Source: Alcanivoracaceae bacterium
Lineage (GTDB): Bacteria > Pseudomonadota > Gammaproteobacteria > Pseudomonadales > Alcanivoracaceae
Assembly: GCA_029210325.1 (NCBI GenBank)
Contig: JARGPU010000001.1
Location: 444,126 to 508,125, forward strand
Reading direction: 5' to 3'
DNA length: 64,000 nt
This document shows positions 8,302 through 61,555 of this stretch, in pieces. Every line of letters starts with the position of its first letter. Position 1 is the stretch's first letter. Under the pieces are notes generated by a model, which saw only the letters and a list, made by a program, of their open reading frames with translations, was not told the origin of the DNA and did not search any database. Both the position numbers and the translations under genes were made by a program.

Positions 8302-8368
8302 AAATGCTCCGGCAACCGGCCGCCAGCCTAGCATCTATACAATTGTGCAGGAAATATATTGAGTGATT

Positions 8369-8459
8369 TGGCGGAGAGGGAGGGATTCGAACCCTCGTTA
8401 CGCTATGAACGTAAACACGATTTCGAATCGTGCGCATTCAACCACTCTGCCACCTCTCC
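8369..8459 (-). tRNA. tRNA-Ser (anticodon CGA)
   Basis: Read on the minus strand from 8459, the gene has a GGAGAGG acceptor stem pairing with CCTCTCC, a D arm, and an anticodon stem-loop ACGATT-CGA-AATCGT. It has the long variable arm typical of serine tRNAs, a T arm containing GGTTCGAATCC, discriminator G and an encoded 3' CCA at 8371-8369. Anticodon CGA reads UCG codons. The tRNA body without CCA is 8372-8459. Confidence 0.96.
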
Positions 8460-8634
8460 AGATGGTGTGAGGCACGCATTCTAGCGGCAACATAGCGATC
8501 AGGCGAGCACGGGCTCTCTCAGTGTTTGTATCGGTGAAACTATTTCAATAGGCTTGGGCTATGAGGCTCATTCTTTTGTATGCATCGCACGTCTTCGCTC
8601 ATCGGCGTACGGTGAGCGTGTCAGTGCCGTAGTG

Positions 8635-8660
8635 CACGCATTCACAACACGCATTCACAA
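8635..8660 (+). repeat. 13-bp tandem direct repeat before dps
   Basis: Two perfect, directly adjacent copies of CACGCATTCACAA (8635-8647 and 8648-8660) lie immediately upstream of the ribosome-binding site of dps. They may be a slippage duplication in the leader or a paired regulator site; nothing else supports a function. Confidence 0.6.
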
Positions 8661-8670
8661 GGAGTGACAC

Positions 8671-9117
8671 ATGATTGAACATAGCAAAGAGGTAGCCGAT
8701 GAGCTGGCCAAACTGCTGGCCGAGACCTATACCCTTTACTTAAAAACCCATAACTATCACTGGAACGTGACCGGCCCCATGTTCCATGGCCTGCATACCA
8801 TGTTCGAGGTGCAGTACACCGAGTTGGCTTTGGCGGTGGACACTATTGCCGAGCGCATTCGGGCGCTGGGTTCTTTTGCACCGGGCAGCTATGCCGCCTA
8901 TGCGCGCCTGTCTGAGGTGAAGGATGATGAAGCGGTGCCGCCGGCCGCCACCATGCTGGCTAATCTGGCTAGCGATCACCGGCTGGTAGCAGAGCGAGCT
9001 AACAGGGTGATGAAGCTGGCCGCCAAACATGAAGATGAAGGCACTGCGGCGCTAGCCAGCGCGCGGATTGAAGTTCATGAAAAGACCGCCTGGATGCTGT
9101 CCGCACATCTTGAATAG
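8671..9117 (+). CDS. dps: Dps-family DNA-protecting mini-ferritin
   Basis: 148 residues. Four-helix ferritin-like protein that forms a dodecamer, oxidises Fe(II) with hydrogen peroxide and stores the iron, shielding DNA. The inter-subunit ferroxidase residues are recognisable: His30 in HNYHWNVTGPMF, His42 in LHTMFE with Glu46, and Asp57 and Glu61 in DTIAERIRALG. The N-terminal tail is short and not Lys-rich, so direct DNA binding is uncertain. AGGAG lies upstream of ATG 8671. A promoter must lie within the preceding 210 bases after the tRNA; I could not assign hexamers with confidence. Confidence 0.93.
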   Translation: MIEHSKEVADELAKLLAETYTLYLKTHNYHWNVTGPMFHGLHTMFEVQYTELALAVDTIAERIRALGSFAPGSYAAYARLSEVKDDEAVPPAATMLANLASDHRLVAERANRVMKLAAKHEDEGTAALASARIEVHEKTAWMLSAHLE

Positions 9118-9194
9118 GTCTGGACCTGAGGCAAAGTCCGCAGCGGCTTGCATGGGTGTATAGTCGAAAAAACAGTGACAGGGAGGAGCTGCCC

Positions 9195-9602
9195 ATGACC
9201 AGTAAGGGAGAAAGCGTTCGCGACATCATGGCCCGACATCCGGCATCAATTCGCGTTGGTACGGATTTGACTGAAGTCGTCGAGGTGTTGCTGCGCCAGC
9301 ATATGACTGGCTTGCCAGTGGTGGATGAGGCCGATCGGGTGGTCGGCTTTGTCTCAGAGCAGGACTGCCTGCGCACTTTGCTGGTGTCCAGCTATCACGG
9401 CGAAGGGTCGCCACGGGTTGAGGATGTGATGTTTCGAGAGCCGCTCACCGTGAAGCTCGACGATGCGGTGGTGGATGTTGCTGAGCAGATGGTCAAGCAG
9501 AAGCCGAAGATCTATCCGGTGGTGGATCAGGGTGGCCGTTTGCAGGGGCTATTGATGCGCGGCCAGGTGTTGGCCCATCTGATTGAAAGCCGGCGCCAGT
9601 AG
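9195..9602 (+). CDS. CBS-domain pair protein
   Basis: 135 residues made almost entirely of two CBS motifs. The first is V-R-D-I-M-A-R-H-P-A-S-I-R-V with MTGLPVVDEADRVVGFVSE; the second is V-E-D-V-M-F-R-E-P-L-T-V with YPVVDQGGRLQGLLMRG. CBS pairs bind adenosine nucleotides and act as energy or ligand sensors. I start at ATG 9195, which follows GGGAGGAG, instead of an earlier GTG at 9156. Being stand-alone, its partner is unknown; location between dps and a lipoprotein gene gives no firm hint. Confidence 0.88.
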   Translation: MTSKGESVRDIMARHPASIRVGTDLTEVVEVLLRQHMTGLPVVDEADRVVGFVSEQDCLRTLLVSSYHGEGSPRVEDVMFREPLTVKLDDAVVDVAEQMVKQKPKIYPVVDQGGRLQGLLMRGQVLAHLIESRRQ

Positions 9603-9614
9603 GCGCCGGCTTTT
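9589..9614 (+). terminator. Intrinsic terminator of the CBS-domain gene
   Basis: A 9-bp GC-only stem GCCGGCGCC / GGCGCCGGC (9589-9597 with 9602-9610, loop AGTA) is followed by TTTT. The stem's first arm and loop overlap the last codons and the stop of the CBS gene. Confidence 0.8.
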
Positions 9615-9618
9615 AGTC

Positions 9619-10671
9619 TTATGCCGGGCCGATGATGATTGGATCAATGATGAAGATGGGTGGAATGAGCTCGCCTTCAACTAGCTCCAGATCAAGCGTG
9701 ATATCAAAGCTCTTGCTGACTAGCTCAGCTCCAGCCACAGCCGCACTGCCTTTCAGGCGCACTACTGCGGTGGTGCCGACCTCTCCGATGCCATCGCCCT
9801 GTGCGCTGATGCTCAGGCTCTGCAGTTCCACCTCATTTTCGACGGCGCCGCTGAGCAAATCTTCCAGTGTTTCAGTTAACCCTTCTGGAGTGATGTCGAT
9901 TTGAATTCCTTCGCCGACTTCATTGACTGTCTCACCGGCAAAAGTACCTGTGGCAGTACCGTTCCAGGCAGTTCCCGGAGTGCTAACCAGACTGCCCAGC
10001 CCGTCAACAATGTGGAAGTCAGAGGGGGCTTCATCGAGGTCCGTTTCCGGGTTAAAGCTTTCCGGGTCGAAGTTTCTCAACACGCTATCAAAGCCAGTGT
10101 TGTCGGCGCTGAACAGGGTGTTGAAGAAGTTGAAGGTGCCGTTGCCTTCCAGTGAGTAGGCAAGGTCGTTGAAGTTCCAAATAAAGCCTGTATTACTGCA
10201 GAAATCACCGCTGGCGCCATCGTTCCACACGTCATAGGCTTCGCCGACGTCAGCGGTGCCCCGCATGACAAAATCTGTCAGAGTATGAACATTGACGGTG
10301 TCGATGGTGGAGCCAAATTGGCTGTACACCACATTGCATAACACCGAATGATAGGTTTGTTCGTTATAGTCCACCCTCAGGATAATGGGGCCTTCTAGCG
10401 GGCTGTACTCCGTGTCTTCATCTTCGGGGTCCTGCTCAAGTGAAAAATAGCCGCTGCTTTCAACGTAGGCGACATATTCGGCCCCGTTGGCGTCCTTGAT
10501 ATCCACACGAGCACCAACCATCGGGCCATCAGTTGTTGTGGCCGTGCCTTGCAGGGCAACAAAGCTGGTTTTTTCATCGCCATCCACCAGGTCAGACAGT
10601 TTGCAGCCGCTCAGGCCGACACTGGCGCACACCGCCACAGTTAATGCTGAGTATCTGAATACTTGCTTCAT
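9619..10671 (-). CDS. Outer-surface lipoprotein of unknown function
   Basis: 350 residues. The N-terminus is a lipoprotein signal with lipobox L-S-G-C (Cys23). The mature part is acidic (many Asp, Glu and Gly), with an N-terminal segment, about residues 38-75, resembling a carboxypeptidase-regulatory-like or Ig-like beta-sandwich (A-L-Q-G-T-A-T-T-T-D-G-P-M-V-G-A-R-V). The hydrophobic tail I-I-D-P-I-I-I-G-P is not long enough for a membrane helix. It follows the TraF-like gene by 26 bases on the same strand, so the two are probably one operon encoding an envelope pair. No enzymatic motif was recognised. Confidence 0.75.
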   Translation of the reverse strand: MKQVFRYSALTVAVCASVGLSGCKLSDLVDGDEKTSFVALQGTATTTDGPMVGARVDIKDANGAEYVAYVESSGYFSLEQDPEDEDTEYSPLEGPIILRVDYNEQTYHSVLCNVVYSQFGSTIDTVNVHTLTDFVMRGTADVGEAYDVWNDGASGDFCSNTGFIWNFNDLAYSLEGNGTFNFFNTLFSADNTGFDSVLRNFDPESFNPETDLDEAPSDFHIVDGLGSLVSTPGTAWNGTATGTFAGETVNEVGEGIQIDITPEGLTETLEDLLSGAVENEVELQSLSISAQGDGIGEVGTTAVVRLKGSAAVAGAELVSKSFDITLDLELVEGELIPPIFIIDPIIIGPA

Positions 10672-10697
10672 GCTGTTCTCCTTTGAATTCTCTTGGC

Positions 10698-11867
10698 TCA
10701 GATCTTGAAGCCAATTTGCATGCCGACCGCGTAGGTGTCGCCTTCGCCAATACCGCCACCAATATCAATATTGAAGCGGTCCCACGGAGTGATACCGATA
10801 CCACCGGTGAGCATGTCGGAGACATTGCTCTTAAGATCGGTGCGGTAACCGCCGCGAAGGTGGAAGTGGCGCCCTGCAGAAAGTTCTACGCCGACCCGGG
10901 CAAACTGGGTGTCGAGCAACAGGTCGTAACCATTGCGTTGGGTAAGATCCAGATTGGCTTCCAGCTTGAATAGCTCGCCGTTATAGCCTGCGGCGGCGGT
11001 GAGTACCGGTGCCATATCGTAGTCGGTGCCGTTGGGGCCGCTGTAACTCTGGGGGATCAGGTTTTCGATGGTGCCTGCCAGGGTTATCTTGCCGTCCTCG
11101 CCCACCCGGGTGCTCAGGCCCAGGTCCACGTTCAGGCCGCTGTGCGAGTTGACGTTGGTGGAGTCAACAATATCGCCCGCATCGAAATTGGCAATGTTCT
11201 CCTGATAGGCGATCAGCTCAATAGTCTGGATTTTTACCGTGGCGCCACCGTCAACTTGCAGTCCGGCGAGCTCAAATCCCTTGCCTATCATCAGGCCGTA
11301 CTCCGCCAGCCATAGCACCGACGCGTTAACCTGCGAGTTCAGGTTGTCCTGATCGCCAACGCCATTGGCAATGGCCTCCAGCACGGTTCTGTCGGCGGGA
11401 TCGTAGGCGAATGCAGTGCCAATAGCGGCTTTGCCTTTGCCAACAAATGCCATTGGCAGGGAGTCATTGGGGATGGCGACCATTAATGCGCCACCCGCAT
11501 CGATCTGAACCAGCTTGTTGCTGATGTCTAACAGGGCGGCTTCGGTGTCATCAACCGCTTGATCCCGTGCAGGGCCAGGCGGTGGTGGATTGTTTTCCAG
11601 TTCGTCGAGAAGGTCTTGGGCATCTTCTGACGATTCGATAAAGCCATCCTTGTCGGAGGCAATTACACCGAAGTTAACGGCAAAACTAAACTGATCATCT
11701 TCATCAAACCGATTGAGCATGGCCGGGTTGTACAGGGCCTGATTATATTCACCCATGGTCATGCCGGTGCCGCCTCGGGCCATGGCTCGGGCATCGTAAA
11801 CCTCGGCAAAGGCCAGAGGGCTAATAACGGTGCCAGCAATGGCGCTGGCAAGCAGGATTTTTCGCAT
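10698..11867 (-). CDS. TraF-like (F-plasmid TraF family) envelope protein
   Basis: 389 residues with a signal peptide cleaved near Ala-Phe-Ala (about residue 21). The mature start A-R-A-M-A-R-G-G-T-G-M-T and the porin-like C-terminal half match what I recall of the 'conjugal transfer protein TraF' family (PF13729), which despite the name is widespread outside plasmids. Repeated G-G-x-R/G-x-x-x strands and a terminal aromatic-containing V-G-M-Q-I-G-F-K-I suggest an outer-membrane beta-barrel, much like FadL/OmpP1 proteins. ATG 11867 follows GGAAG. No conjugation genes are nearby, so a transfer role is unlikely. Confidence 0.75.
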   Translation of the reverse strand: MRKILLASAIAGTVISPLAFAEVYDARAMARGGTGMTMGEYNQALYNPAMLNRFDEDDQFSFAVNFGVIASDKDGFIESSEDAQDLLDELENNPPPPGPARDQAVDDTEAALLDISNKLVQIDAGGALMVAIPNDSLPMAFVGKGKAAIGTAFAYDPADRTVLEAIANGVGDQDNLNSQVNASVLWLAEYGLMIGKGFELAGLQVDGGATVKIQTIELIAYQENIANFDAGDIVDSTNVNSHSGLNVDLGLSTRVGEDGKITLAGTIENLIPQSYSGPNGTDYDMAPVLTAAAGYNGELFKLEANLDLTQRNGYDLLLDTQFARVGVELSAGRHFHLRGGYRTDLKSNVSDMLTGGIGITPWDRFNIDIGGGIGEGDTYAVGMQIGFKI

Positions 11868-12070
11868 GATGGCTTCCTTGGTGTTATTTGGTCCGATCCC
11901 CGCCGGCCGTGGGATCCCCATCTAAGCCGGATGACTGACTCTAGCATGCTGCGAATAATGTATAAAACCCCAGCCCAAGAGTGCTTGCAGGCCATTTGTA
12001 TGCTTGGTGATTGGCCTGTCTGTTTGCCTCCGGTAGGGTGACGGCTCCCCCAAATTGATGAGAGATCACC

Positions 12071-12934
12071 ATGGAGTATCAGGATATTCGCTATCAGGTC
12101 AGTAACCGCATTCTGACTTTGACCTTGAACCGCCCTGAGCGCATGAACGCCTGGACTCTGCGGATGCGGGACGAAATGCTGGATGCGCTGTCCCGTGCCA
12201 ACGCCGACGACGATATCCGGGTAATTGTGGTCACTGGCGAAGGCAAGGCCTTTTGCGCCGGGATGGAGCTGGTGCGCCCGGAAGGCAACATTTTTGGCTA
12301 TGACACCCCTCAGGGGGACGAGCTGAATATCGAGGAAATACGCGATTCTGGCGGTGAGTTATCGCTCGCTTTGTATAACTGCAGCAAGCCAGTTATCGCG
12401 GCCATTAATGGCGCCGCGGTGGGCATTGGTATAACCATGACCCTGCCCATGGATTTTCGTATTGCGGCTGAGGGGGCCAAGCTCGGCTTTGTCTTCAGTC
12501 AGCGGGGGATCGTCCCGGAAGCCTGTTCAAGCTGGTTCCTGCCCCGCCTGGTGGGTATGCAGCAGGCGCTGGAGTGGGTCTTGTCGGGGGAGATCTTTAC
12601 TGCCGAGGAGGGCCTCGCCGGTGGCTTGATTCGTAGTGTCCATCCCCGTGGCACGGTGCTGGAAGCGGCCTATGCGCTGGCGGAAAAGCTGATGCACAAG
12701 ACCTCGCCAACGGCGGTGGCGCTGGCTCGGCAGATGCTGTGGCGCAACCCGACCTTTGATCATCCGATGATGGCCCACCAGATTGATTCACGGTTGATGT
12801 ATATCGCCAGTGAGCGCATGGATGGCCGGGATGGCTTCAAGGCTTTCCTGGAGAAGCGTGATCCGGTTTTCACGGCCAAGGTCTCCAGCGACATGCCGGC
12901 AACGCCATTCTGGCAGGACCCGCCGCTGACTTGA
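12071..12934 (+). CDS. Enoyl-CoA hydratase/isomerase (crotonase) family protein
   Basis: 287 residues. The crotonase fold is clear: L-T-L-N-R-P-E-R-M-N-A-W at the N-terminus, the oxyanion-hole segment GEGKAFCAGMEL (about 57-68) and the second oxyanion segment I-N-G-A-A-V-G-I-G-I-T-M-T (about 115-127). The acidic residues usual for hydratases are replaced in part: the 'E-x-x-G-x-x-P-E' region reads FSQRGIVPEACSS, retaining one Glu. This is the pattern of many annotated crotonase/enoyl-CoA hydratase proteins of uncertain substrate. It is monocistronic, so the pathway cannot be assigned. Confidence 0.87.
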   Translation: MEYQDIRYQVSNRILTLTLNRPERMNAWTLRMRDEMLDALSRANADDDIRVIVVTGEGKAFCAGMELVRPEGNIFGYDTPQGDELNIEEIRDSGGELSLALYNCSKPVIAAINGAAVGIGITMTLPMDFRIAAEGAKLGFVFSQRGIVPEACSSWFLPRLVGMQQALEWVLSGEIFTAEEGLAGGLIRSVHPRGTVLEAAYALAEKLMHKTSPTAVALARQMLWRNPTFDHPMMAHQIDSRLMYIASERMDGRDGFKAFLEKRDPVFTAKVSSDMPATPFWQDPPLT

Positions 12935-25219: not shown

Positions 25220-26077
25220 ATGCCGTCAGTCCGTGAATCCTTTGCCCGTGCCATCAACCGGCTGGTTCGCCCGTGGCTACTGCAGTACCGCAAACTGACC
25301 TCCAGCGGGCGGGCCTTGCCGTCGTTTATTATCATCGGCACACAGAAAGGCGGTACCACCAGTCTGTTTCATTATCTCAGCCAGCACCCCCAGTTGGTGC
25401 CGTCCTATCGCAAGGAAGTGCACTATTTCGATGGCGGCTTGAAACCGAAGCGCGACAACTTTGCCCTTGGTGAGCGTTGGTATCGTTCCAACTTTCCGTT
25501 GCGCAAACATATCCGGCCAGATCAGCAAGCTTTTGAGGCTTCGCCTCTGTATGTGTTTCACCCGTTGGCGCCGGAGCGTATCCATGCTCTGCTTCCTGAT
25601 GCCAAGCTTATTCTGTTACTGCGAGAGCCAACCGAGCGCGCGCTTTCCCATTACTTTCATCAGTCACGCAAAGGGCGCGAAACTCTGTCAGTGATGGATG
25701 CACTGCAGGGTGAGGAAGCACGTCTTGCACCGGTGCTGGCCGAGCAGAATTACAAGCACCAGAGTTTTATGCATTTTTCTTACAAGCTGCGCGGCCACTA
25801 TGCGGAGCAGATTCGTCGTTATCAGGATATTTTTCCAAAAGAGAATCTTTTGATTCTGGGCAGCGAGCAGTTTTTTTCTGATCCTCATACTGCCCTTGAG
25901 AAAGTATTCGAGTTTGTCGGAGTGGATTCATCTTTTCAGGTCCCGAATCTTAACGCTCGCAATGTGGGTAGCAATCGCAAGAGCGTTCAGGCAGATGTCT
26001 ATCAGTACCTGCAGGACTATTTTGCCCCCCATAATCAGGAGCTTTACACGTTGCTTGGTGAAAATTTCGACTGGTAA
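25220..26077 (+). CDS. PAPS-dependent sulfotransferase (N-sulfotransferase-like)
   Basis: 285 residues. The 5'-phosphosulfate-binding loop is GTQKGGTTSL (40-49) and the 3'-phosphate site is LREPTERALSHY (134-145). These match the heparan-sulfate N-sulfotransferase-type family. It transfers sulfate from PAPS to a hydroxyl or amine, probably on a carbohydrate or lipid. No signal peptide is evident; residues 1-35 are basic. It stands alone, in opposite orientation to its left neighbour, and ends with its own terminator. Another four sulfotransferase-like genes lie at 54.8-58.5 kb, so the cell probably makes a sulfated surface compound. The acceptor is unknown. Confidence 0.9.
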   Translation: MPSVRESFARAINRLVRPWLLQYRKLTSSGRALPSFIIIGTQKGGTTSLFHYLSQHPQLVPSYRKEVHYFDGGLKPKRDNFALGERWYRSNFPLRKHIRPDQQAFEASPLYVFHPLAPERIHALLPDAKLILLLREPTERALSHYFHQSRKGRETLSVMDALQGEEARLAPVLAEQNYKHQSFMHFSYKLRGHYAEQIRRYQDIFPKENLLILGSEQFFSDPHTALEKVFEFVGVDSSFQVPNLNARNVGSNRKSVQADVYQYLQDYFAPHNQELYTLLGENFDW

Positions 26078-52021: not shown

Positions 52022-52048
52022 ATTTGCTGATTACTTGAGGGTATGGCC

Positions 52049-52975
52049 ATGTCGATGGCGGATCGTGACGGTGTTATCTGGTTGGATGGTGAAATGGTTC
52101 CGTGGCGCGACGCCAAGGTTCACGTGCTGACGCATACGTTACATTACGGTATGGGCGTTTTTGAAGGTGTGCGTGCCTATGCAACCGATAAAGGCGCCAG
52201 CATTTTTCGTCTGCGTGAACATACTGATCGGTTGTTCAATTCCGCGCATATCATGAATATGAAAGTGCCGTTCAGCAAAGATCAGATCGATGCTGCCCAG
52301 CTGGCCGCAGTGCGAGAGAATAATCTGCCATCTGCCTATCTGCGGCCAATGGTGTTCTTTGGTAGCGAGGGCATGGGCTTGCGTGCCAGCAACCTGAAAG
52401 TGCATGTCATGGTTGCCGCTTGGGAGTGGGGCGCGTACCTGGGAGCGGAAGCAATCGAAAAGGGCATCAAGGTGCGCACCAGTTCCTATACCCGTCACCA
52501 CGTCAATATCACCATGTGCAAGGCCAAGGCCAACGGCAACTATATCAACTCCATGCTGGCTCTTAATGAAGCACTGTCGGCGGGCTGTGATGAAGCCTTG
52601 CTGCTGGACCCGGAAGGCTGTGTTGCCGAGGGCAGCGGCGAGAATATTTTTATCGTTAAGGATGGCGTTCTATATACGCCGGAGCTGACTTCTTGCCTTG
52701 ACGGTATTACCCGCAAGACATTGATCCAGTTGGCCGAGGAAAACGGCATTAAAGTAATCGAAAAGCGCATCACCCGCGATGAAGTATATATCGCTGATGA
52801 AGCTTTCTTTACTGGTACTGCCGCCGAAGTGACGCCGATTCGTGAGCTGGATGGGCGAGCCATTGGTGAAGGTCAGCGAGGTCCGATCACCGAGAAGCTG
52901 CAGAGCATCTATTTCGCATTGGTGCGCGGTGAGCTTCCCCAATACAACCACTGGCTGTCCCCGGTCACGGGCTGA
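52049..52975 (+). CDS. ilvE: Branched-chain amino acid aminotransferase
   Basis: 308 residues, fold-type IV PLP aminotransferase. It interconverts valine, leucine and isoleucine with their keto acids. The PLP lysine is Lys160 in TMCKAKANGNY, and the P-loop-like V-A-E-G-S-G-E-N-I-F motif (about 192-201) is present. I choose ATG 52049 because GAGG sits eight bases before it; ATG 52043 would be too close. It lies directly after glnE, as in Pseudomonas, and its stop shares one base with the first glycosyltransferase gene (TGATG). Confidence 0.96.
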   Translation: MSMADRDGVIWLDGEMVPWRDAKVHVLTHTLHYGMGVFEGVRAYATDKGASIFRLREHTDRLFNSAHIMNMKVPFSKDQIDAAQLAAVRENNLPSAYLRPMVFFGSEGMGLRASNLKVHVMVAAWEWGAYLGAEAIEKGIKVRTSSYTRHHVNITMCKAKANGNYINSMLALNEALSAGCDEALLLDPEGCVAEGSGENIFIVKDGVLYTPELTSCLDGITRKTLIQLAEENGIKVIEKRITRDEVYIADEAFFTGTAAEVTPIRELDGRAIGEGQRGPITEKLQSIYFALVRGELPQYNHWLSPVTG

Positions 52976-53871
52976 TGAAAGATAGCTTGCAGCTAGCTTT
53001 CTATCGCCTGGCGGCGAAAGGTTTCATTCCGGCGCGCTGGTTTGAACCGGATTTGCCGCCGCTGGAAAATAGGGCGGCCCGAACGGGCCGCCTGTCTGTT
53101 GAGGTAGTCAGCCACTGTTGGAATTACTCCCACTTTCTGGTCTATCAGCTCAGTTCATTAGTACGTTATCCGCCTCAGGATGTGGACGTCATCATGACGG
53201 TGTTTTACGCGCCCGAAGATGAAAAGACCGCCCGGCTTTTGCAGTTCTTTGCCACTCAGCAGGTGCCTGGTGTGAGCTGGAACTGGAAGCCGCTACCCAG
53301 ACAGCAGCTGTTTCGTCGGGGCATTGGTCGCAATTTGGCTGCGCTGGAGACCAAGGCGGATTGGGTCTGGTTTACCGACTGTGATCTGATGTTCCGCGAC
53401 GGCTGCCTTGATACGCTGGCAGAACTACTGCAGGGTCGTCGTGACGCTCTGGTGTTTCCCCAAGACGAACACTGTACTGACCTGCTCGAAGAAGATAACC
53501 CGATGCTGAGAGTTACGGCCGGGGAAGAGCAGGTTTTGGATATCGATACTTCCGAGTTCGTTACATTTCACCCGTCAAGAGCCACTGGGCCGTTGCAAAT
53601 CGCCCATGGCGATGTATGTCGAGCAGTTGGCTACTGCCGCAACATTCGTCTCTACCAGACGCCCGTGGAGAGTTTCGCAAAATGCCACGAAGACAGAGCG
53701 TTTCGCTGGTTGCTACGTAGTCAGGGAGTGCCTCTCCCTATTCCTGGGGTATATCGTATCCGACATATCAAAAAGGGCCGCTATAGCGGTAGTGATACGG
53801 ATACTCGCTTCAGAACATGGCTGCGAGTAATGCAGTCTCGCCGGCGTGATCCAACGGATCGTCAGCCCTAG
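52975..53871 (+). CDS. GT-A fold glycosyltransferase, surface glycan
   Basis: 298 residues. A GT-A nucleotide-sugar domain shows SVEVVSHCWNYSHFLVYQLS near the N-terminus, a middle V-W-F-T-D-C-D-L-M-F (Asp135-x-Asp137) motif for metal/sugar-nucleotide binding, and a basic C-terminal tail. I recall similar proteins as galactosyltransferase-like members of LPS core loci, but the donor sugar is unknown. The gene starts one base into ilvE's stop, so it is translationally coupled. It opens the suspected surface-glycan/sulfation cluster. Confidence 0.75.
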   Translation: MKDSLQLAFYRLAAKGFIPARWFEPDLPPLENRAARTGRLSVEVVSHCWNYSHFLVYQLSSLVRYPPQDVDVIMTVFYAPEDEKTARLLQFFATQQVPGVSWNWKPLPRQQLFRRGIGRNLAALETKADWVWFTDCDLMFRDGCLDTLAELLQGRRDALVFPQDEHCTDLLEEDNPMLRVTAGEEQVLDIDTSEFVTFHPSRATGPLQIAHGDVCRAVGYCRNIRLYQTPVESFAKCHEDRAFRWLLRSQGVPLPIPGVYRIRHIKKGRYSGSDTDTRFRTWLRVMQSRRRDPTDRQP

Positions 53872-53888
53872 CCACTCAGGATGTGACC

Positions 53889-54791
53889 ATGTTGTTCTGT
53901 ATTTTTTCATTCAACCGCGGACAGTTTCTTGAGAACTGTATTGCAAGTATTGAGCAGTGTGCGCCCAGTGCTCGTATTGCCGTGTTTGATGACAATAGCT
54001 ACGACGAGTATACCCGTGGCGTATTAGAGAAAGTTGCTAGTAGGCACACTGTCATACAGCCTGGTCATCAGAGCCAACGTCGCCTTGGTGGTTTGTACGG
54101 CAATATGCAAACTGCCCTGGATTACGCCGCCAAGGAGGATTTGGTGTGCTACCTTCAGGATGACACTCAGATGGTCCGCCCGCTGACAGAGCAGGATGTG
54201 GCGGCAATTAATGCCCTGTTCGATGGCGACGAAAAGATAGGCTTTGTCAGCCCCTGTTTTCTACGTGGTCGTAATAGGCAGCGCGATATTTCCAGCATGG
54301 TTTTTGATGCCGCCCGACAGATTTACTTTCGTCAGGGTACCAAGCAGAGTGCCGGCCAGAATTTTTCAGCCCTGCTAATTATGCGCCCGGCAAGATTACT
54401 GGCGAAAAACTGGAGCTTCGGCCGTTCCGAGCCAGAAAATGATCGTCAGGCAGCTGCTTCGTTCGGCCCGATGGCCTACCTGAAGGTGCCATTCGCAATG
54501 TGGCTTCCAGAGGTGCCAACCTATCGCGGAAAGCGTAAAACGCTGGCTTTGAAAATTGCCGAACGGCAGCGCCGCTCCGGCTACTTTCCATTTCGCCTTC
54601 TGACCGACGAGCAGGTGTCCAGCATGGCAGAGCGCTCCCCTGAAATTCTGCCAATAGCGGAAGATTTCCTTTCATGCAGCAATGGTGACCCAGCTAAGCC
54701 TTGGGCTTACCATCCAATGCAGGATGATCGTTGGTTGCAGAAGCTCAGTAGTGTTGAGTTAGCACTGCGCCGTTGGTTTCAGCGCGGCTAG
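53889..54791 (+). CDS. GT2-like glycosyltransferase
   Basis: 300 residues from ATG 53889 (GTG at 53883 is an alternative). N-terminal FCIFSFNRGQFLENCIASI resembles the GT2 start, with D-D-N near 34-36 and the metal-binding D-D-T at 91-93 (Y-L-Q-D-D-T-Q-M). The C-terminal half contains G-P-M-A-Y-L-K-V-P-F-A-M-W-L-P-E-V-P. Donor and acceptor unknown. It lies 17 bases after the preceding glycosyltransferase stop and 8 bases before a sulfotransferase-like gene. Confidence 0.75.
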   Translation: MLFCIFSFNRGQFLENCIASIEQCAPSARIAVFDDNSYDEYTRGVLEKVASRHTVIQPGHQSQRRLGGLYGNMQTALDYAAKEDLVCYLQDDTQMVRPLTEQDVAAINALFDGDEKIGFVSPCFLRGRNRQRDISSMVFDAARQIYFRQGTKQSAGQNFSALLIMRPARLLAKNWSFGRSEPENDRQAAASFGPMAYLKVPFAMWLPEVPTYRGKRKTLALKIAERQRRSGYFPFRLLTDEQVSSMAERSPEILPIAEDFLSCSNGDPAKPWAYHPMQDDRWLQKLSSVELALRRWFQRG

Positions 54792-54799
54792 GGGGCACC

Positions 54800-55417
54800 A
54801 TGCGAGTGTTTGTTTTGACCACCGGGCGTGCAGCTTCGACAACCTTTGCCGAGGCATGTGCGCATATAGACGGAATGACCGCTGGCCATGAAACGCATAA
54901 GGGCATGGTAGAAGGCAGGTTGGAGTACCCGGATAACCATATCGAATCGGATAACCGACTGGTTTGGTTTCTGGGCACGCTGGATCGACTTTATGCAGAT
55001 GAGCAGACTTTTTATGTTCATCTCTCGCGGGATCCTGACAAGGTGGCAAGAAGCTATCGTGAACGTTGGCACATAACTGTGTCGATTGTGCGAGCTTTTT
55101 ATCACGCATTTCTGATGAATCGTAAGAAGCCGGATGCACAGCGTGCACTGCAGGCCTGTAGGCTCTTTGTTGATACGGTGGAAGATAATATTCAGTTCTT
55201 TCTCAAGGGCCGAAGCAACTGGATTGACGTGCGGGTTGAGTCGCTGGAGGAAGATTTTTTCCGGTTTATGGACAAGGCAGGCTTGCAGGGCGATCGGCAG
55301 CAGATATCGGCTGCGCTGAATCAGGTAAGCAATATCAGCAAGCGGAAAGGTAAGAAGGGCGGTGTGTTTAGTCGAATGCAGTCACGCCTTTCATCGAAGA
55401 AGCTGGATCTTTCCTGA
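54800..55417 (+). CDS. Sulfotransferase-like protein, atypical
   Basis: 205 residues from ATG 54800, preceded by GGGGGCACC. The N-terminal R-V-F-V-L-T-T-G-R-A-A-S-T-T-F (2-16) resembles the 5'-phosphosulfate loop, and V-H-L-S-R-D-P-D-K-V-A-R-S-Y (72-85) resembles the 3'-phosphate site. The family match is weaker than for its neighbours, and the last 30 residues are Lys/Ser-rich and basic. It could be a sulfotransferase or a related nucleotide-binding enzyme. It sits between two glycosyltransferases and two clear sulfotransferases. Confidence 0.6.
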   Translation: MRVFVLTTGRAASTTFAEACAHIDGMTAGHETHKGMVEGRLEYPDNHIESDNRLVWFLGTLDRLYADEQTFYVHLSRDPDKVARSYRERWHITVSIVRAFYHAFLMNRKKPDAQRALQACRLFVDTVEDNIQFFLKGRSNWIDVRVESLEEDFFRFMDKAGLQGDRQQISAALNQVSNISKRKGKKGGVFSRMQSRLSSKKLDLS

Positions 55418-55447
55418 AGTCATGGGCGGCTTGTCCGGGGGCGGGTA

Positions 55448-56149
55448 ATGATTGTTTGTCACAAGTATCGATATATTTTTCTTAAGACTACCAAAACGGC
55501 GGGCACCTCCGTGGAGATCGCTCTTTCACAATTTTGTGAGGACGGCGACATCATTACACCGATTTCTCCGGTGGATGAGGAATTGCGCATCAGCTTGGGC
55601 GGTCATCCATCCCGGTTCTATGCGGCGCAATGGCACGAGTATCACCCGCTTGATTGGTGGCGCAAGCTGACCAAGGGCAAGGTAAAGCAACGTTTCTATA
55701 ACCACGTCCCGGCAAGAAAGGTTCGGGCACGGTTGCCTCGGGAAGTGTGGGATGGCTATTACCGCTTTGCGATTGTGCGTAATCCGTGGGACAGGGTGAT
55801 TTCTCAATACTTTTGGCGCTGCCGCAAGCTCTCTGAGGACCAGCGTCCGAGTATGGATGAGTTTCTCGAGTCCAGCGATGTTCGATCTCTGATGCGCAAG
55901 GGTTATCAGCTTTATACTATCGGGGGCCAGTCGCAAGCCCATCGATTGATTCGATATGAGAGCCTTGCTGAAGAGTTGGATGAAGTACGCCGTCATCTCG
56001 GTTTGCCGGAGCCGCTGGAGCTGCCGGGGGCTAAATCAGGGCATCGTACCGATCGCCGCCACTATCGCGAAGTGCTTAATGAAAGGCAGCGCGACAGGAT
56101 TGCGGAGCTGTTTCGTGACGAGCTAAAGATAACCGGATATACCTTCTGA
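55448..56149 (+). CDS. Sulfotransferase family 2 protein, first twin
   Basis: 233 residues. 5'-PAPS loop IFLKTTKTAGTSVEIAL (10-26) and 3'-phosphate motif FAIVRNPWDRVISQYFWR (107-124). These are the P-loop and the R-N-P-x-D-R-x-x-S-x-Y block of carbohydrate (Sulfotransfer_2/3-type) sulfotransferases. The N-terminal region lacks a signal peptide or membrane helix. A tandem copy of the same length follows 22 bases later. The acceptor is probably a sugar of the glycan built by the adjacent glycosyltransferases. Confidence 0.88.
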   Translation: MIVCHKYRYIFLKTTKTAGTSVEIALSQFCEDGDIITPISPVDEELRISLGGHPSRFYAAQWHEYHPLDWWRKLTKGKVKQRFYNHVPARKVRARLPREVWDGYYRFAIVRNPWDRVISQYFWRCRKLSEDQRPSMDEFLESSDVRSLMRKGYQLYTIGGQSQAHRLIRYESLAEELDEVRRHLGLPEPLELPGAKSGHRTDRRHYREVLNERQRDRIAELFRDELKITGYTF

Positions 56150-56171
56150 TTATGCAGTGCAGGGCCAAGCC

Positions 56172-56873
56172 ATGATTGTCTGCCATAAATACAAGTTCAT
56201 TTTTCTAAAGACTAATAAGACGGCCGGTACATCGGTCGAGATTGCGCTTTCCAAGTTCTGCGACGATGGTGATATTGTGACCCATCTTTCTGGAGATGAG
56301 GAGGCGTTGCGGGCAGGTGGCGGTGGGTTAGCCTCGCAGCGGTATCATGCCCCGTGGACCATGTATAACCCGCGGGATTGGTACAATCGGATCGTCCATG
56401 GTCAGCACAAGAAGCTCTATTACAATCATATCCCTGCATGGAAGTTAAAGAGTCGCCTCGATCCGCAGGTATGGGATGGGTACTACAAGTTCTGTGTTGA
56501 GCGAAATCCCTGGGATCGAGTTATTTCCCAGTACTATTGGCGTTGCCGCGACCTGGCGGAGGCGGATCGGCCTTCCATTGATGAGTTTCTCGAGTCAACC
56601 CATGTGCGCTCATTAAAGCGCAAGGGCTTTCAGCTCTATACCATTAACGGTGAGTTGCAAGTGGACAAGATTTGTCGTTATGAGAGTCTGGCAGAGGATC
56701 TGGAAGAGGTGCGCCAGCATCTGGGTTTGCCGGAGCCATTAGCGCTACCTAAAACCAAGGCCACATTCCGTAGTGATCGACGTCCCTACAAACAGGTGTT
56801 AACGCCAGCGCAGCGTGATCGTATTGCCGAACTGTTTGCCGACGAAATTCGTCTGATGGGTTACGAGTTCTGA
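56172..56873 (+). CDS. Sulfotransferase family 2 protein, second twin
   Basis: 233 residues from ATG 56172 (AGGG eight bases upstream; a GTG at 56157 is a less likely start). PAPS loop IFLKTNKTAGTSVEIAL and 3'-site FCVERNPWDRVISQYYWRCR. It aligns without gaps to the protein at 55448-56149 over the whole length: the PAPS-binding motifs, the D-E-F-L-E-S block and the C-terminal R-D-R-I-A-E-L-F are nearly identical, while the region about 40-90 differs most. That variable region is where the acceptor sugar should sit, so the twins may sulfate different positions. The last 13 bases overlap the convergent glycosyltransferase gene. Confidence 0.88.
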   Translation: MIVCHKYKFIFLKTNKTAGTSVEIALSKFCDDGDIVTHLSGDEEALRAGGGGLASQRYHAPWTMYNPRDWYNRIVHGQHKKLYYNHIPAWKLKSRLDPQVWDGYYKFCVERNPWDRVISQYYWRCRDLAEADRPSIDEFLESTHVRSLKRKGFQLYTINGELQVDKICRYESLAEDLEEVRQHLGLPEPLALPKTKATFRSDRRPYKQVLTPAQRDRIAELFADEIRLMGYEF

Positions 56874-57715
56874 TCTGCGGACGACTTTCTCTGCTGAAAC
56901 TCCGGTAGCTGGGCGATACCGTAATCCGTCCACGTCACGCCATGGCGAGCGTTATAAATGCGCAATTGCTTGTTCTCGGTGACTAGTTTTGGGTCCTTGT
57001 AGCCACGCTTGTGATCAAGGTGAACAACGATTGCGTTATAGCGAACATGTTTTGGTTTCACGCCGGCATTTATCAAGCGAACCCCAAACTCTCTGTCCAA
57101 GCCGCCCCACGGCATGCGTTCATCAAAGCCATTAATCTGCATCACGTCTTTCAGCCAGGCGGAGCCGTTTGACCCTTTGAAGTTGCATTTTGTCGGCGTC
57201 AGGGTGTTGAAGATGCGGGCTCGAGCCGGTGTGGCAGTGAGCTTGCTGTTTTTGTAGCTCGCCTTCAGGCCATGTGCTTTTAACCACTTCAGTTCGAAGC
57301 AGCGTCCGGACAGGATGTCCTCCTTGCTGATAGTCTCGCTGGTGCTCATTGGTAGCTTGTGATACCCGCCAGACAAATAGTGCTTCGGTCTTGCTTCCGC
57401 TGCATGCACGGCAAGAAAGTCCGCGCGAGGAATGCAGTCGCCGTCGGTAAAAACCAGATAGGGTGCATCGGCCTGCAAGATGGCTTTGTTTAGTATCCGA
57501 CATTTGCGAAATCCGTCGTCCTCCTGCCAGACATGCTTGATGGTCAAGCCAGTCTGTTGGCGCATGCGATCAATGGTTTCGCGGGTGTCTTCCCGGGAGC
57601 CATCGTCACCAATAACAATCTCAAAATCCTTGTGCTGTTGATTGCTGTAGCCCCAAAGCACTTTCTCCAGCCAGATCGGAGAATTATAGGTTGTCATAAT
57701 GACCGATATCTTCAT
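56861..57715 (-). CDS. GT2 family glycosyltransferase with C-terminal galactosyltransferase-like domain
   Basis: 284 residues. N-terminal MKISVIMTTYNSPIWLEKVL and G-D-D-G-S at 36-40 are GT2 signatures, with the metal motif F-T-D-G-D-C (89-94). The later W-L-K-D-V-M-Q-I-N-G-F-D-E-R-M-P-W-G-G-L-D-R-E-F-G matches the galactosyltransferase-type C-terminal segment (Glyco_transf_7C). ATG 57715 is chosen because the upstream frame (to 57778) overlaps the neighbouring gene. It runs leftward, unlike the twins. A surface-glycan role is inferred from context. Confidence 0.85.
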   Translation of the reverse strand: MKISVIMTTYNSPIWLEKVLWGYSNQQHKDFEIVIGDDGSREDTRETIDRMRQQTGLTIKHVWQEDDGFRKCRILNKAILQADAPYLVFTDGDCIPRADFLAVHAAEARPKHYLSGGYHKLPMSTSETISKEDILSGRCFELKWLKAHGLKASYKNSKLTATPARARIFNTLTPTKCNFKGSNGSAWLKDVMQINGFDERMPWGGLDREFGVRLINAGVKPKHVRYNAIVVHLDHKRGYKDPKLVTENKQLRIYNARHGVTWTDYGIAQLPEFQQRKSSADQNS

Positions 57716-57734
57716 TGTGGAAGCGTCTCTTATG

Positions 57735-58457
57735 TCAGGCCGGGAAGTCCGTGCTATAGCCAAAAGTGCTGAAATCATTCTGATACAGATCCTGTACCAA
57801 CTCGATCAGCTCGTTGTCATAGTAATGGCGCAGCTTATCGCCGGCGCCTGTGGCATTACGCTTGAACGAAGTGACAGGCTGTTCAAGGTCCGAAACAATG
57901 CGCCGTTTTATTTCCGCCAAATCCTCATCAAGTGATTCAACCTTGCCTATTAAATCAAACATTTCCACCGGGATAAGCATCAATGAAGACTGTGGTGCCC
58001 AGTGAGCATTGCTGTAGAGAAATGCTGGTGTTTGTTTGGCACGCAACAGGAAATCGCGAAATGAAGACTCCTTGCCGGCGCGTACTGCTCGTCGCTCGAT
58101 TTTGTCCAGATAGGCAGACAGTGTGCGGGTGTATGGATTACGCACTACGGTGAATTTGAATAGTGAGGCAAAGCGTTCTACCTCGGCGCCGCTAAGGCGG
58201 GCCGGGGTGGCAAACATTTTTTTTGCATCCGGCGAATCGATATCGCGGCCAAACTTCAGCCGGGCAAGATTGGTTACCACTGTGGAGTTGGCTGCCTTGG
58301 GTATCCGGTTGCAGAAAAAGCCTAACTCCATATCGACCATGCCGCGGTCATCGGCACTACGAATGGATGCCGGCGAACGGAATGGGTAGCGCCGGTAAAA
58401 TGGCCGCCAGGGCAGTGTCAGGCCGTTAAGTAATAGCTTGTCGAAGGCTGAGTGCAT
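57735..58457 (-). CDS. Sulfotransferase family 2 protein
   Basis: 240 residues. 5'-PAPS loop F-C-N-R-I-P-K-A-A-N-S-T-V-V (48-61) and 3'-site KFTVVRNPYTRTLSAY (101-116), followed by K-x-x-R-R. This is another carbohydrate-type sulfotransferase, distinct from the twins. N-terminus M-H-S-A-F-D-K-L-L-L is not a clear signal. It precedes the GT2 gene at 57715 by 19 bases on the same strand, forming a two-gene leftward unit, and shares the region with the LPS genes immediately to its right (58545-60178). Confidence 0.87.
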   Translation of the reverse strand: MHSAFDKLLLNGLTLPWRPFYRRYPFRSPASIRSADDRGMVDMELGFFCNRIPKAANSTVVTNLARLKFGRDIDSPDAKKMFATPARLSGAEVERFASLFKFTVVRNPYTRTLSAYLDKIERRAVRAGKESSFRDFLLRAKQTPAFLYSNAHWAPQSSLMLIPVEMFDLIGKVESLDEDLAEIKRRIVSDLEQPVTSFKRNATGAGDKLRHYYDNELIELVQDLYQNDFSTFGYSTDFPA

Positions 58458-58544
58458 GGGCGTCGTCAGTCGGTGCAGGCGGGCCTGCGGGTTATCAATA
58501 TGGGTGCTACTTTAGCACAGTCGGCGGGCCTGCCTGAGTCGCCT

Positions 58545-59273
58545 TTAGCTTTGGCTGTGATAGCCATCAAGCAATGCGGACCAGTTGTGCTCACTCCAGT
58601 GGAGGGCCGGGTGCAGGCGTTTTTCTTTGTGCAGTGAGCGTAGCAGTCTGGCCAGATTGTCCTGTTGCCAATTGCCCGGCGGGCGGGCGCTGCATTTGTC
58701 GAAATCGATTAGCCAGCTTGCGCCGTCATCATCAAGCAGGATGTTATGGATATTCAGGTCGGTGTGATCAATGCCGTTCAGATGAAAACGACGGATCATG
58801 GCCCCAATCTGCTGCCATTGGTGGACGGTAAGGGGCTGGCGCTGCAACACCGCCAACAGGTCGCTGGCGTTGGTAATGCGACCAATCAATAAGTCTGCCC
58901 GATACATGGCGCCGCGGCGGCTCATGCGCGCAGCAATCGGCTCAGGTACGGGCAGGCCGGCACGGAACATGGAGTCGAGTAAGCTCAGCTCGCGCATGGC
59001 GCGGCTATAGGCTGGGGTGATGCCGGTATACAGGTCTTTCACCAGGCGCCCGAACAAACCGCCGCGGCGGTAATGGCGCAGCACCAGCTGGCGCTCGCCA
59101 TCGCGGACAAACCAGGCAGTGCCACGACCCATGGCGGTGCCGATTACGGCATTGCGAGCGCGCCAGAACTCGGGCTCGAATACCTCACTGGACAGGGTCG
59201 AGAGACTGTCCTCCCGCAGCCAGCAGATGTGCGCTCCCTGACGGATTTCAACAAAGCCCGCTGGACGACTCAC
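58545..59273 (-). CDS. kdkA: 3-deoxy-D-manno-octulosonic acid kinase (KdkA-like)
   Basis: 242 residues from GTG 59273; it overlaps the stop of the acyltransferase gene by four bases (GTGA). The kinase-like fold shows a catalytic loop I-D-H-T-D-L-N-I-H-N-I-L-L (about 169-181) and the metal-binding L-I-D-F-D-K-C (about 188-194), as in KdkA and other LPS core kinases. It phosphorylates the Kdo residue of the inner LPS core, cytoplasmic face of the inner membrane. A longer start at 59324 would lie inside the acyltransferase gene. Confidence 0.9.
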   Translation of the reverse strand: MSRPAGFVEIRQGAHICWLREDSLSTLSSEVFEPEFWRARNAVIGTAMGRGTAWFVRDGERQLVLRHYRRGGLFGRLVKDLYTGITPAYSRAMRELSLLDSMFRAGLPVPEPIAARMSRRGAMYRADLLIGRITNASDLLAVLQRQPLTVHQWQQIGAMIRRFHLNGIDHTDLNIHNILLDDDGASWLIDFDKCSARPPGNWQQDNLARLLRSLHKEKRLHPALHWSEHNWSALLDGYHSQS

Positions 59274-60178
59274 CGGTAAGGATTCCTGCCGTCTGGCTGA
59301 TTCTTGAAGCGGCGATGTACCCACAGGTACTGCTCAGGGGCTTTACGCACATAGTCTTCGATGGTGGCATTGATCAGCGTGGCGTCGGCCAGAGCATCTT
59401 CGCCGGGAAAGTTCTCCAATGGCGCGCCAAACTCAATCCGGTAGCGGCCATTTGCGAGGCGATAGTGGGCCGTCGGCACAACCACAGCCCCACTCATGCG
59501 GGCAATCCGGGTGGTTGCGGTAATGGTTGCGGCGGGGACGCCAAAGAATGGCGCAAATACGGCGTGCTTCATGCCGTAGTCCTGATCAGGCGCGTACCAC
59601 ACCGCGCGCCCTGCTTTCAGGTGGCGTACCAGGCCGCGCAGGTCATCGCGGTCGATATAGTGCTCTACCTCGCGGCGGCCCTGCTTGATCAGCCAGTCCA
59701 GAACCATATTGTTGTTGGGCCGATAAACCACGCTGAATGGCCGCACCTTGCCGAGCAGTCTGCTGCCCACATCAATGGTGTTGAAGTGCATGCCAAGCAT
59801 GAGCACGCCTTTGCCTTCGCCAAGCGGGCCCTCGAGATTTTCCCGACCAATGATTTCCAGACGCTTACCCAAGTCAATGCGCTGGTTGCAGAAAGCACCG
59901 GCCATCTCGGTCAGAGCCTCGCCGGTGCTGACCATGATTTGGCGACTCAGTGCCTGCTGTTGGTTGGCATCAAGTTCAGGAAAACACAAGCGCACGTTGG
60001 TTTCCGCAATACGTCGTCGACTGCCAGCCAAGTACCAGGACAGTCGGCCAATACCGCGGCCCGCGGCAAGCAGGAAATTCCACGGCAGCTGGCCTGCCAG
60101 CCAGAACAGGGCAACACCAAACCAGGTCGGCCACCAGGTTGGATGAGCAAGAGAAGTTGATCGTTTGCGTTTGGCCAT
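59270..60178 (-). CDS. Lipid A biosynthesis acyltransferase (LpxL/HtrB family)
   Basis: 302 residues. One N-terminal membrane helix (about 19-45) precedes the acyltransferase domain with the catalytic H-x4-D pair in GMHFNTID (His131, Asp136). The G-x-x-x-W-Y-A-P-D-Q-D-Y block (about 190-201) and F-F-G-V-P-A-A-T (about 212-219) are shared with LpxL/LpxM. It adds a secondary fatty acid to lipid A. Which acyl chain is uncertain (lauroyl- or myristoyl-type). Start ATG 60178 follows GGGGG. It forms an overlapping pair with kdkA, head-to-head with waaA. Confidence 0.93.
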   Translation of the reverse strand: MAKRKRSTSLAHPTWWPTWFGVALFWLAGQLPWNFLLAAGRGIGRLSWYLAGSRRRIAETNVRLCFPELDANQQQALSRQIMVSTGEALTEMAGAFCNQRIDLGKRLEIIGRENLEGPLGEGKGVLMLGMHFNTIDVGSRLLGKVRPFSVVYRPNNNMVLDWLIKQGRREVEHYIDRDDLRGLVRHLKAGRAVWYAPDQDYGMKHAVFAPFFGVPAATITATTRIARMSGAVVVPTAHYRLANGRYRIEFGAPLENFPGEDALADATLINATIEDYVRKAPEQYLWVHRRFKNQPDGRNPYR

Positions 60179-60289
60179 GTCACCCCCGGAGGACAGCGCA
60201 GAAGTCTACTGGCTCGCCGGAGGCCTTTCCAGCACAGGGGGGCGTGGTGATCGTGTTAACATCGCCTCGCTGGTGACCCGGGAGCTTGC

Positions 60290-61555
60290 ATGCGTCTGTT
60301 ATATACCCTGCTTTGGTATCTGCTAATTCCTGTGGTACTGGTGCGCTTGTGGCAATTGGGCCGCCATGCGCCCGCCTACCGGCAGCGCTGGAAAGAGCGT
60401 TTCGCCCTTGGTTATGGCGATGAGCTGGCTGCCAGCGTCTGGGTGCATGCCGCTTCGGTGGGGGAGATGCTGGCCGCCGCGCCAATGATTGAAGCTCTGT
60501 TACAGCGCTATCCTGACACCCCCTTGCTTATCACCACCACCACGCCAACAGGCTCAGAGCGTGTTCAGGCGTTGTTCGGCAATCGCGTGCGTCATGTCTA
60601 CTGGCCCTGGGATACGCCCTGCGTGCTGCGCCGTTTCTGGCATGCTTTCAATCCACGGCTGGTGATTCTTCTGGAAACTGAATTGTGGCCGAATTTGCTC
60701 GCTGCGGCCGCCGCCCGGCGGGTGCCGGTGATGTTGGTTAATGGCCGGCTATCGGAGCGTAGTCACCGCCGCTACCGCCGCCTGAGCCGGCTGATGCGGC
60801 CGATGTTGGCCAGTCTTGAGGCGCTTGCTGTGCAGACTCCGGCAGAGGCAGAGCGCTTCGTTGATCTGGGCGCAAACCGTCAGCGGGTCACTGTCACCGG
60901 CAACGTGAAATTTGATATTGCTTTGGATGATGCTTTGGCAGATAGCGCTGCCCGTCTGCGCGAGGACCTGGGCCAGCGCCCCATATGGATTGCTGCCAGT
61001 ACCCATCCGGGGGAGGACGAGGTGATGCTGGCTGCTCATAAACGTCTGCGCGAGCAGCAACCTGATGCGCTATTGGTGCTGGTACCCCGTCATCAAGAGC
61101 GATTTGCCCAGGTCGCGGAGCAGGTGCTGGCCAGTGGTCACACTATGGCGCGGCGCAGTCTTGAGCAGCTGCCAGCGCCGCAAACCGCGGTCTATCTGGC
61201 CGATACCATGGGTGAGCTGCTGATGCTGTATGGCGTGGCGGACATTGCTTTTGTGGCTGGCTCATTAGCACCCATCGGTGGTCACAACTTACTGGAGCCT
61301 GCGCTCTGGTCAAAGCCGGTGATCAGTGGTCCGGTGCTGCACAATTTCACTTTGATCGCCGAATTGCTGGATGCTGCAGGTGGTCATCGGGTGGTGCGGG
61401 ATGCTGAGCAGCTTGGCGCGCTGCTGGGCGAGCTGTTCAGTGATCCGCAGCGGCGCCAGCAGATGGGGGACAGGGCTCGGCAGGTGGTGGAGCAGCATGG
61501 TGGCGCGCTCGCCAAGTTGCTTGAGGTGCTGGAGCAGTACTGGCCGGCGGCTTGA
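60290..61555 (+). CDS. waaA: Kdo transferase
   Basis: 421 residues. An N-terminal membrane helix (about 3-20), then the GT30 domain. The catalytic Glu59 is in HAASVGEMLAA, followed by T-T-T-T-P-T-G-S (about 79-86), and the C-terminal lobe has A-G-S-L-A-P-I-G-G-H-N-L-L-E-P (about 324-338), the CMP-Kdo-binding signature. It adds Kdo residues to the lipid A precursor. The gene is divergent from the acyltransferase/kdkA pair across 111 bases. Whether it adds one or two Kdo is not readable. Confidence 0.97.
   Translation: MRLLYTLLWYLLIPVVLVRLWQLGRHAPAYRQRWKERFALGYGDELAASVWVHAASVGEMLAAAPMIEALLQRYPDTPLLITTTTPTGSERVQALFGNRVRHVYWPWDTPCVLRRFWHAFNPRLVILLETELWPNLLAAAAARRVPVMLVNGRLSERSHRRYRRLSRLMRPMLASLEALAVQTPAEAERFVDLGANRQRVTVTGNVKFDIALDDALADSAARLREDLGQRPIWIAASTHPGEDEVMLAAHKRLREQQPDALLVLVPRHQERFAQVAEQVLASGHTMARRSLEQLPAPQTAVYLADTMGELLMLYGVADIAFVAGSLAPIGGHNLLEPALWSKPVISGPVLHNFTLIAELLDAAGGHRVVRDAEQLGALLGELFSDPQRRQQMGDRARQVVEQHGGALAKLLEVLEQYWPAA

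Follow-up and report, generated by a model that had tools for sequence, protein, structure and literature searches.

In this study, we analyzed a seven-gene cassette in a 64,000-nucleotide stretch (hereafter, the window) of an Alcanivoracaceae genome (GCA_029210325.1, contig JARGPU010000001.1, forward-strand positions 444,126 to 508,125). The cassette consists of three glycosyltransferase-type genes (GT_A, GT_B, and GT_C) and four sulfotransferase-type genes (ST_1 to ST_4), and lies between ilvE and the lipopolysaccharide (LPS) genes kdkA, lpxL, and waaA. Our reading, to which we give a probability of roughly two in three, is that the cassette was acquired horizontally and took the place of heptosyltransferase genes, and that phosphorylated 3-deoxy-D-manno-oct-2-ulosonic acid (Kdo) is the base on which its glycosyltransferases assemble a core without heptose, to be sulfated by the cassette's sulfotransferases. 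Because the cassette sits where most relatives keep their heptose genes and the heptose genes searched for are gone, such an unusual, heptose-free, and sulfate-bearing core is probable. The reading draws on the gene content and protein families, the position after ilvE, the absence of PF01075 and HldE, the mutual exclusion of GT_A and PF01075, kinase linkage, recurrence in distant genomes, and an APS (adenosine-5'-phosphosulfate) kinase gene. A heptose-free LPS core is predicted for the window genome, the link to LPS and the loss of heptose both being well supported by these sequence comparisons.

Heptose Genes and the ilvE Slot

The window genome (3.03 Mb, 99.85% complete) belongs to the Alcanivorax family; below, G, L, and f denote genomes, loci or stretches, and families, respectively, and G000 is the window genome. 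The heptosyltransferase family PF01075 was present in 43 of 46 family genomes, and the three without it make up the whole window genus: G000 and G043 (99% complete), each with zero matches, and G042 (64% complete). The adenylyltransferase domain of HldE (TIGR02199), by which alone ADP-heptose synthesis was judged, was likewise not found in these three genomes, and it exceeded the cut-off in A. limicola (G034) and in each of 10 further family members examined.

The place of the missing genes is indicated by gene order. The slot count covered five relatives read first (L110 and L115 to L118) and 38 further stretches around PF01075 genes. Of the 43 family genomes bearing PF01075, 35 (5 from the first reading and 30 from the later stretches) had a PF01075 gene no more than 300 bp from ilvE. 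In the first five, glnE and ilvE are followed by two PF01075 heptosyltransferase genes with further genes and then by lpxL; in the window, the cassette stands at this place, between ilvE and kdkA-lpxL. No match to GT_A, GT_B, or a cassette sulfotransferase was obtained at E 1e-8 in the stretches fetched for this count. From these gene orders we infer an in-place replacement of the heptosyltransferase genes by the cassette. A kdkA gene and a PF01075 gene were within 3 kb of each other in G031, G033, G034, and G038 and on different contigs in G037. Next to kdkA in G037 and G038 (L112 and L113), on the flank opposite lpxL, is another waaA-like gene (47 and 44% identity to that of the window, respectively); therefore, some relatives have two genes of the Kdo-transferase type.

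GT_A as a Marker of the Predicted Heptose-Free State

A GT_A profile built from six rows was searched genome-wide in 369 gammaproteobacterial genomes (E ≤ 1e-20); the 46 family genomes were searched with the ST_2 protein rather than GT_A, and GT_A was not searched genome-wide in the 10 family members used for HldE. GT_A was found in 9 of the 369 class genomes, none of which carried PF01075, against 296 of 369 overall. Fisher tests of this exclusion gave p 3e-7 by genome and 0.003 by genus, neither of which allows for relatedness; at the genus level, the genus of G412 was counted as PF01075-bearing owing to G316. Listed members of f78, f148, and f157 without a GT_A match (G357, G196, G205, and G316) have PF01075, and f54 has no such listed member; this same-family comparison covers 20 listed of the 73 genomes without PF01075, and members with neither gene may exist.

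Altogether, 13 GT_A genomes were tested: the class search contributed seven, and the other six had been obtained through the sulfotransferase and family searches. PF01075 was absent from 12 of them, including all seven from the class search, and an HldE domain above the cut-off was absent from 12 as well (G126 and G241 gave weak matches below it); the exception on both counts was A. limicola, which was retained in every count. No GT_A match was detected in 72,556 plasmid records. Viral contigs held GT_A-like genes at nine loci (L130 to L138, 32–40% identity) and ST_1-like genes at three (L147 to L149, 29–43%).

Linkage, Recurrence, and Probable Transfer

A Kdo/WaaP-family kinase was encoded no more than 10 kb from GT_A in 11 of the 13 GT_A genomes (the window; L105, L026, and L027; L139 to L145), the two loci without one being those of A. 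limicola (L107) and L035. The kinase of L027 matches PF06293 and is only 26% identical to KdkA, and thus may be of the WaaP type. In addition, an O-antigen ligase of the Wzy_C type was present within the cluster in L026, L027, L139, and L142. The earlier note on this DNA had proposed that the cluster builds and decorates the outer core or a linked glycan. Its connection with LPS is strongly supported, by the ilvE slot and, in distant genomes, by linkage to kdkA, waaA, lpxL, or a ligase of the Wzy_C type. Its outer-core wording overlooks the main feature, namely that the cassette stands at the place of the inner-core heptose genes of relatives, with PF01075 and HldE not found.

All six gene types (GT_A, GT_B, ST_1, one ST_2/3, GT_C, and ST_4) recur in Alcanivorax sp. 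1008 (L105), in the gammaproteobacterial metagenome-assembled genome (MAG) CSMAG_266 (L026), and in a MAG labelled Desulfobacteraceae (L027). In L026 and L027, the cassette adjoins the kinase, the Wzy_C ligase, and an FkbM methyltransferase. The cassette proteins of L026 and L027 are 54–73% and 51–71% identical to those of the window, respectively, with GT_B copies of L105, L107, L026, and L027 at 51–88%. Because the cassette proteins of L026 are far closer to the window's than are its linked LPS genes (kdkA, waaA, lpxL, and tolC, only 31–38%), the comparison points to horizontal transfer of the cassette. In the GT_A tree, the Desulfobacteraceae MAG groups beside the rows of Alcanivorax and CSMAG_266 at a support that does not reach the starred level, and mis-binning of the contig may account for L027.

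In L105 (positions 7290–12830), GT_C and the only ST_2/3 gene of the cassette are separated by five genes, encoding CTP_transf_3, HMGL-like, and HAD hydrolase proteins and two proteins without a Pfam match; this insert possibly encodes a pathway for an activated acidic sugar. In Deltaproteobacteria bacterium IMCC39146 (L029:7450-16589), four sulfotransferase-type genes and a glycosyltransferase family 2 (GT2) gene are found at least about 4 kb from a kdkA 47% identical to that of the window; this stretch gave no GT_A match, and its genome has PF01075 genes.

Sulfotransferases and the Sulfate Donor

Four sulfotransferase-like genes had been proposed from the sequence alone. Three of them belong to the carbohydrate sulfotransferase family PF03567, with scores of 42.9 (ST_2), 47.9 (ST_3), and 85.7 bits (ST_4) over the curated cut-off of 22; ST_2 and ST_3 are 62% identical, and PHROGs placed ST_2 and ST_4 in a galactose-3-O-sulfotransferase family and gave nothing useful for ST_1. 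A PDB search with the ST_2 profile returned weak sulfotransferase matches, from E 0.047. ST_4 alone and ST_1 alone matched no PDB sequence, and their profiles gave only unrelated or chance-level matches.

ST_1 was backed only indirectly. The window protein matched no Pfam family up to E 10, and a direct comparison of its profile with those of ST_2 and ST_4 gave no significant match. Its homologue in the viral contig L149 (31% identical) exceeded the Sulfotransfer_4 cut-off (25.3 bits against 22.8) and that in L147 matched Sulfotransfer_3 below the cut-off; on this account ST_1 is, by transitive homology only, probably a divergent sulfotransferase. G9-R10 and R77-x(7)-S85, invariant across eight sequences, are what we take to be motifs binding 3'-phosphoadenosine-5'-phosphosulfate (PAPS). 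The AF2 model of ST_1 is of low confidence (predicted local distance difference test, pLDDT, 43.7), and a Foldseek search with it gave no match at E ≤ 0.001.

As for the donor, PAPS had been expected to come from outside the window, and the only APS kinase gene found in the genome (PF01583, 226 bits) indeed lies elsewhere, at C13:253020 beside trk genes; cysD and cysN were not searched. Two further sulfotransferase genes were observed. One is in the window at 25220–26077 (+), far from the LPS slot, and matches Sulfotransfer_3 (E 2e-14) and Sulfotransfer_1. The other is a third paralogue of the ST_2 type, 41% identical (L003:1498-2211; G000:C13:789100), whose adjoining gene resembles, by eye, an rpoD sigma factor gene.

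Proposed Mechanism and Alternative Explanations

We propose that WaaA would transfer Kdo onto lipid A and KdkA would phosphorylate it. GT_A would then start the heptose-free core in place of the first heptosyltransferase, with Kdo or the next sugar as acceptor, and GT_B and GT_C, in an order that is not fixed, would extend Kdo with sugars other than heptose. Finally, ST_1 to ST_4 would transfer sulfate from PAPS onto the core oligosaccharide. The enzyme activities, the sugar identities, the order of addition, and the placement of sulfate on the core rather than on another glycan are all deduced rather than observed, and it is our guess that sulfate supplies the negative charge given elsewhere by heptose phosphates; a negative surface suited to a marine or host niche, as envisaged in the earlier note, would likewise be conjecture.

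Several observations weigh against this proposal. First, A. limicola (L107/L028) has GT_A, GT_B, ST_1, one ST_2/3, and GT_C, with no ST_4 seen, in a copy that lies beside pyruvate kinase and away from its kdkA locus, and it keeps two PF01075 genes and HldE; therefore, the cassette is not always in the LPS locus and not always tied to heptose loss. A Kuenenia MAG (L035) carries GT_A together with a sulfotransferase, and 17 kb of its sequence contain no gene resembling kdkA. Second, 7 of the 13 GT_A genomes had no cassette sulfotransferase in the 12–20 kb read around GT_A. These are the seven found only in the class search, among which L141 has a GT_C 56% identical, and because of them sulfation seems to have been added to a broader type of core without heptose, outside the basic module. 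Third, the ilvE slot is common among relatives and not universal. PF01075 does not adjoin ilvE in four kdkA-bearing relatives (G033, G034, G037, and G038), where weak ilvE matches (28–34%) are other proteins and the true ilvE of G037 is 7.4 kb away, and ilvE fell outside the stretch or contig read in G012, G031, G036, and G044. Fourth, the two heptose markers do not always agree, as G316, of the genus of G412, has PF01075 and no HldE match, and G047 and G049 are MAGs of unstated completeness. Finally, the AlphaFold models of ST_1 and GT_A are poor (pLDDT 44 and 46, respectively), and the open-licence literature, as far as its titles and abstracts go, yielded no LPS chemistry for the Alcanivorax group (one match, on Kdo2-lipid A evolution).

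Some of these points would also fit a different division of labor, in which the glycosyltransferases build a heptose-free core and the sulfotransferases merely share the locus, acting on an exopolysaccharide, a glycolipid, or a protein glycan. The GT_A genomes without a nearby cassette sulfotransferase and the separation of cassette and kdkA in A. limicola agree with it, as does the fact that most of 80 loci of the ST_2 type showed no kdkA-like gene in the stretch examined. We nevertheless consider it unlikely, as ST_1, ST_2-type, ST_4, GT_B, and GT_C genes recur with GT_A beside LPS genes (window, L105, L026, and L027), and in the window ST_4 and GT_C follow lpxL-kdkA on one strand.

Less probable still is a separate sulfated surface glycan (capsular, exopolysaccharide, or lipid-linked) unrelated to the core, heptose loss being a coincidence. 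GT_C does resemble chondroitin synthase domains (2z87 in the PDB search, E 9.7e-15), and A. limicola, which retains heptose genes, has its copy elsewhere than in the LPS locus; the GT_A profile also found chondroitin sulfate synthase 3 (E 0.003). Against such a glycan stand the kinase linkage described above and the finding that GT_A and PF01075 never occur together in the class sample, a pattern spanning five families. A capsule or exopolysaccharide locus was considered and rejected, no export, polymerase, or capsule family being detected with Pfam and NCBIfam among the ten central genes (52975–61555), in a scan that did not extend beyond these genes. That a divergent heptosyltransferase missed by PF01075 still adds heptose, with the cassette only extending an ordinary core, we regard as very improbable: profile absence is no proof, and gmhA, gmhB, and hldD were not searched, but the HldE domain is missing too from two genomes at least 99% complete and present in every other family member tested and in A. 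limicola.

Beyond the core that we propose for the window genome, GT_A could mark a class of heptose-free inner core that has not yet been described and that occurs across several families of gammaproteobacteria, where Kdo phosphorylated by KdkA is elongated by a GT2 enzyme. The sulfated version would spread between phyla as a cassette of six gene types able to displace the heptose pathway, and A. limicola would be a living intermediate with both. We hold this wider proposal to be an even bet.

Genes of the Locus

The seven open reading frames reported earlier between ilvE and kdkA all exist at their coordinates (Table 1), the three glycosyltransferase-type genes all match the GT2 family PF00535, and the neighbors kdkA (PRK01723), lpxL (TIGR02207), and waaA (PRK05749) passed their NCBIfam cut-offs. 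The coupling of ilvE to the first gene was also borne out, one base being common to the ilvE stop and the GT_A start (TGATG). Comparison with homologues corrected the starts of GT_B (most likely 53889), ST_1 (54800), and GT_C (57715); with the last, GT_C does not overlap ST_4. The genes lpxL, kdkA, ST_4, and GT_C follow one another in that order on one strand. The GC content of the cassette is 52.4%, against 56.6% in the remainder of the window, and a kdkA search of the window genome gave a single match.

Table 1. Genes of the ilvE–waaA region, in window coordinates.
Feature	Position	Strand	Remarks
ilvE	52043..52975	+	Conserved left border of the LPS-core slot; 78–86% identity to ilvE of five relatives (L110, L115–L118)
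GT_A, GT2-type glycosyltransferase	52975..53871	+	PF00535 E 1.7e-5; invariant D-C-D (TDCD) motif
GT_B, GT2-type glycosyltransferase	53889..54791	+	PF00535 E 1.3e-7; start from homologues, GTG at 53883 possible
ST_1, probable divergent sulfotransferase, 205 aa	54800..55417	+	Without Pfam match of its own; distant homologue only
ST_2, PF03567 sulfotransferase	55448..56149	+	E 8.2e-11
ST_3, PF03567 sulfotransferase, paralogue of ST_2	56172..56873	+	E 2.5e-12
GT_C, GT2-type glycosyltransferase	56861..57715	-	PF00535 E 1.6e-16; start from homologues, reading frame opens at 57778
ST_4, PF03567 sulfotransferase	57735..58457	-	E 7.5e-24; strand and order shared with kdkA
kdkA, Kdo kinase	58545..59324	-	PF06293 E 1.1e-52; PRK01723 303 bits, cut-off 142
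lpxL-type lipid A acyltransferase	59270..60178	-	TIGR02207 320 bits, cut-off 297.8
waaA, Kdo transferase	60290..61555	+	NF004388 542 bits, cut-off 438

Comparison With Known Systems

Gammaproteobacteria commonly have heptose in the inner core, and the heptose precursor is both an immune signal and a drug target. If our reading is true, it would offer a testable explanation of how a bacterium exchanges the base of its outer-membrane glycan, with one gene predictive of heptose loss and a mobile cassette taking over from the pathway and adding sulfate. One comparison is with the heptosyltransferase genes after ilvE in other Alcanivoracaceae, a place they likewise occupy in Pseudomonas; the window has GT2 and sulfotransferase genes there instead, with HldE not found. 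In the inner core of Haemophilus, made with KdkA and OpsX, the genes for the Kdo kinase and for the enzyme elongating phosphorylated Kdo are close together. In the window genus, kdkA has no PF01075 partner, in whose place we propose GT_A. The core of Acinetobacter baumannii is not known to contain heptose.

The A. baumannii lipooligosaccharide core (LpsB, KdoT, and GnaT) is built on Kdo by its own glycosyltransferases (PMC10936431, PMC12856342). As described in the available passages of these papers, it resembles the core proposed here in being gammaproteobacterial, Kdo-based, and made by a glycosyltransferase set of its own; those passages mention no sulfotransferases, and the likeness to GT_A is one of description, not of sequence. 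Among open-licence literature on LPS sulfation, heptose-deficient cores, Kdo kinases with heptosyltransferases, and Alcanivorax LPS or sulfotransferases, no title or abstract opening among those listed describes the cassette. A sponge-derived compound is called a highly sulfated LPS in the available part of its report (PMC4052302). The excerpts at hand on Vibrio sp. KMM 8419 describe a sulfated capsule cluster and suggest possible O-antigen sulfation by one sulfotransferase (PMC11641403). This cluster, from a marine gammaproteobacterium, combines glycosyltransferases and sulfotransferases as the window's does, but it is described as encoding a capsule exported by an ATP-binding cassette system with PAPS genes of its own, and the likeness is again by description rather than sequence. 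According to the accessible text on LpsS of Sinorhizobium meliloti, this LPS-modifying sulfotransferase is a single enzyme of the Stf0 family (PMC12445080), whereas the window has three PF03567 enzymes and one putative divergent enzyme in a core-assembly locus. If our reading is true, the cassette would add a candidate set of LPS sulfotransferases to LpsS and the proposed Vibrio O-antigen enzyme, the two encountered in the open-licence literature searched.

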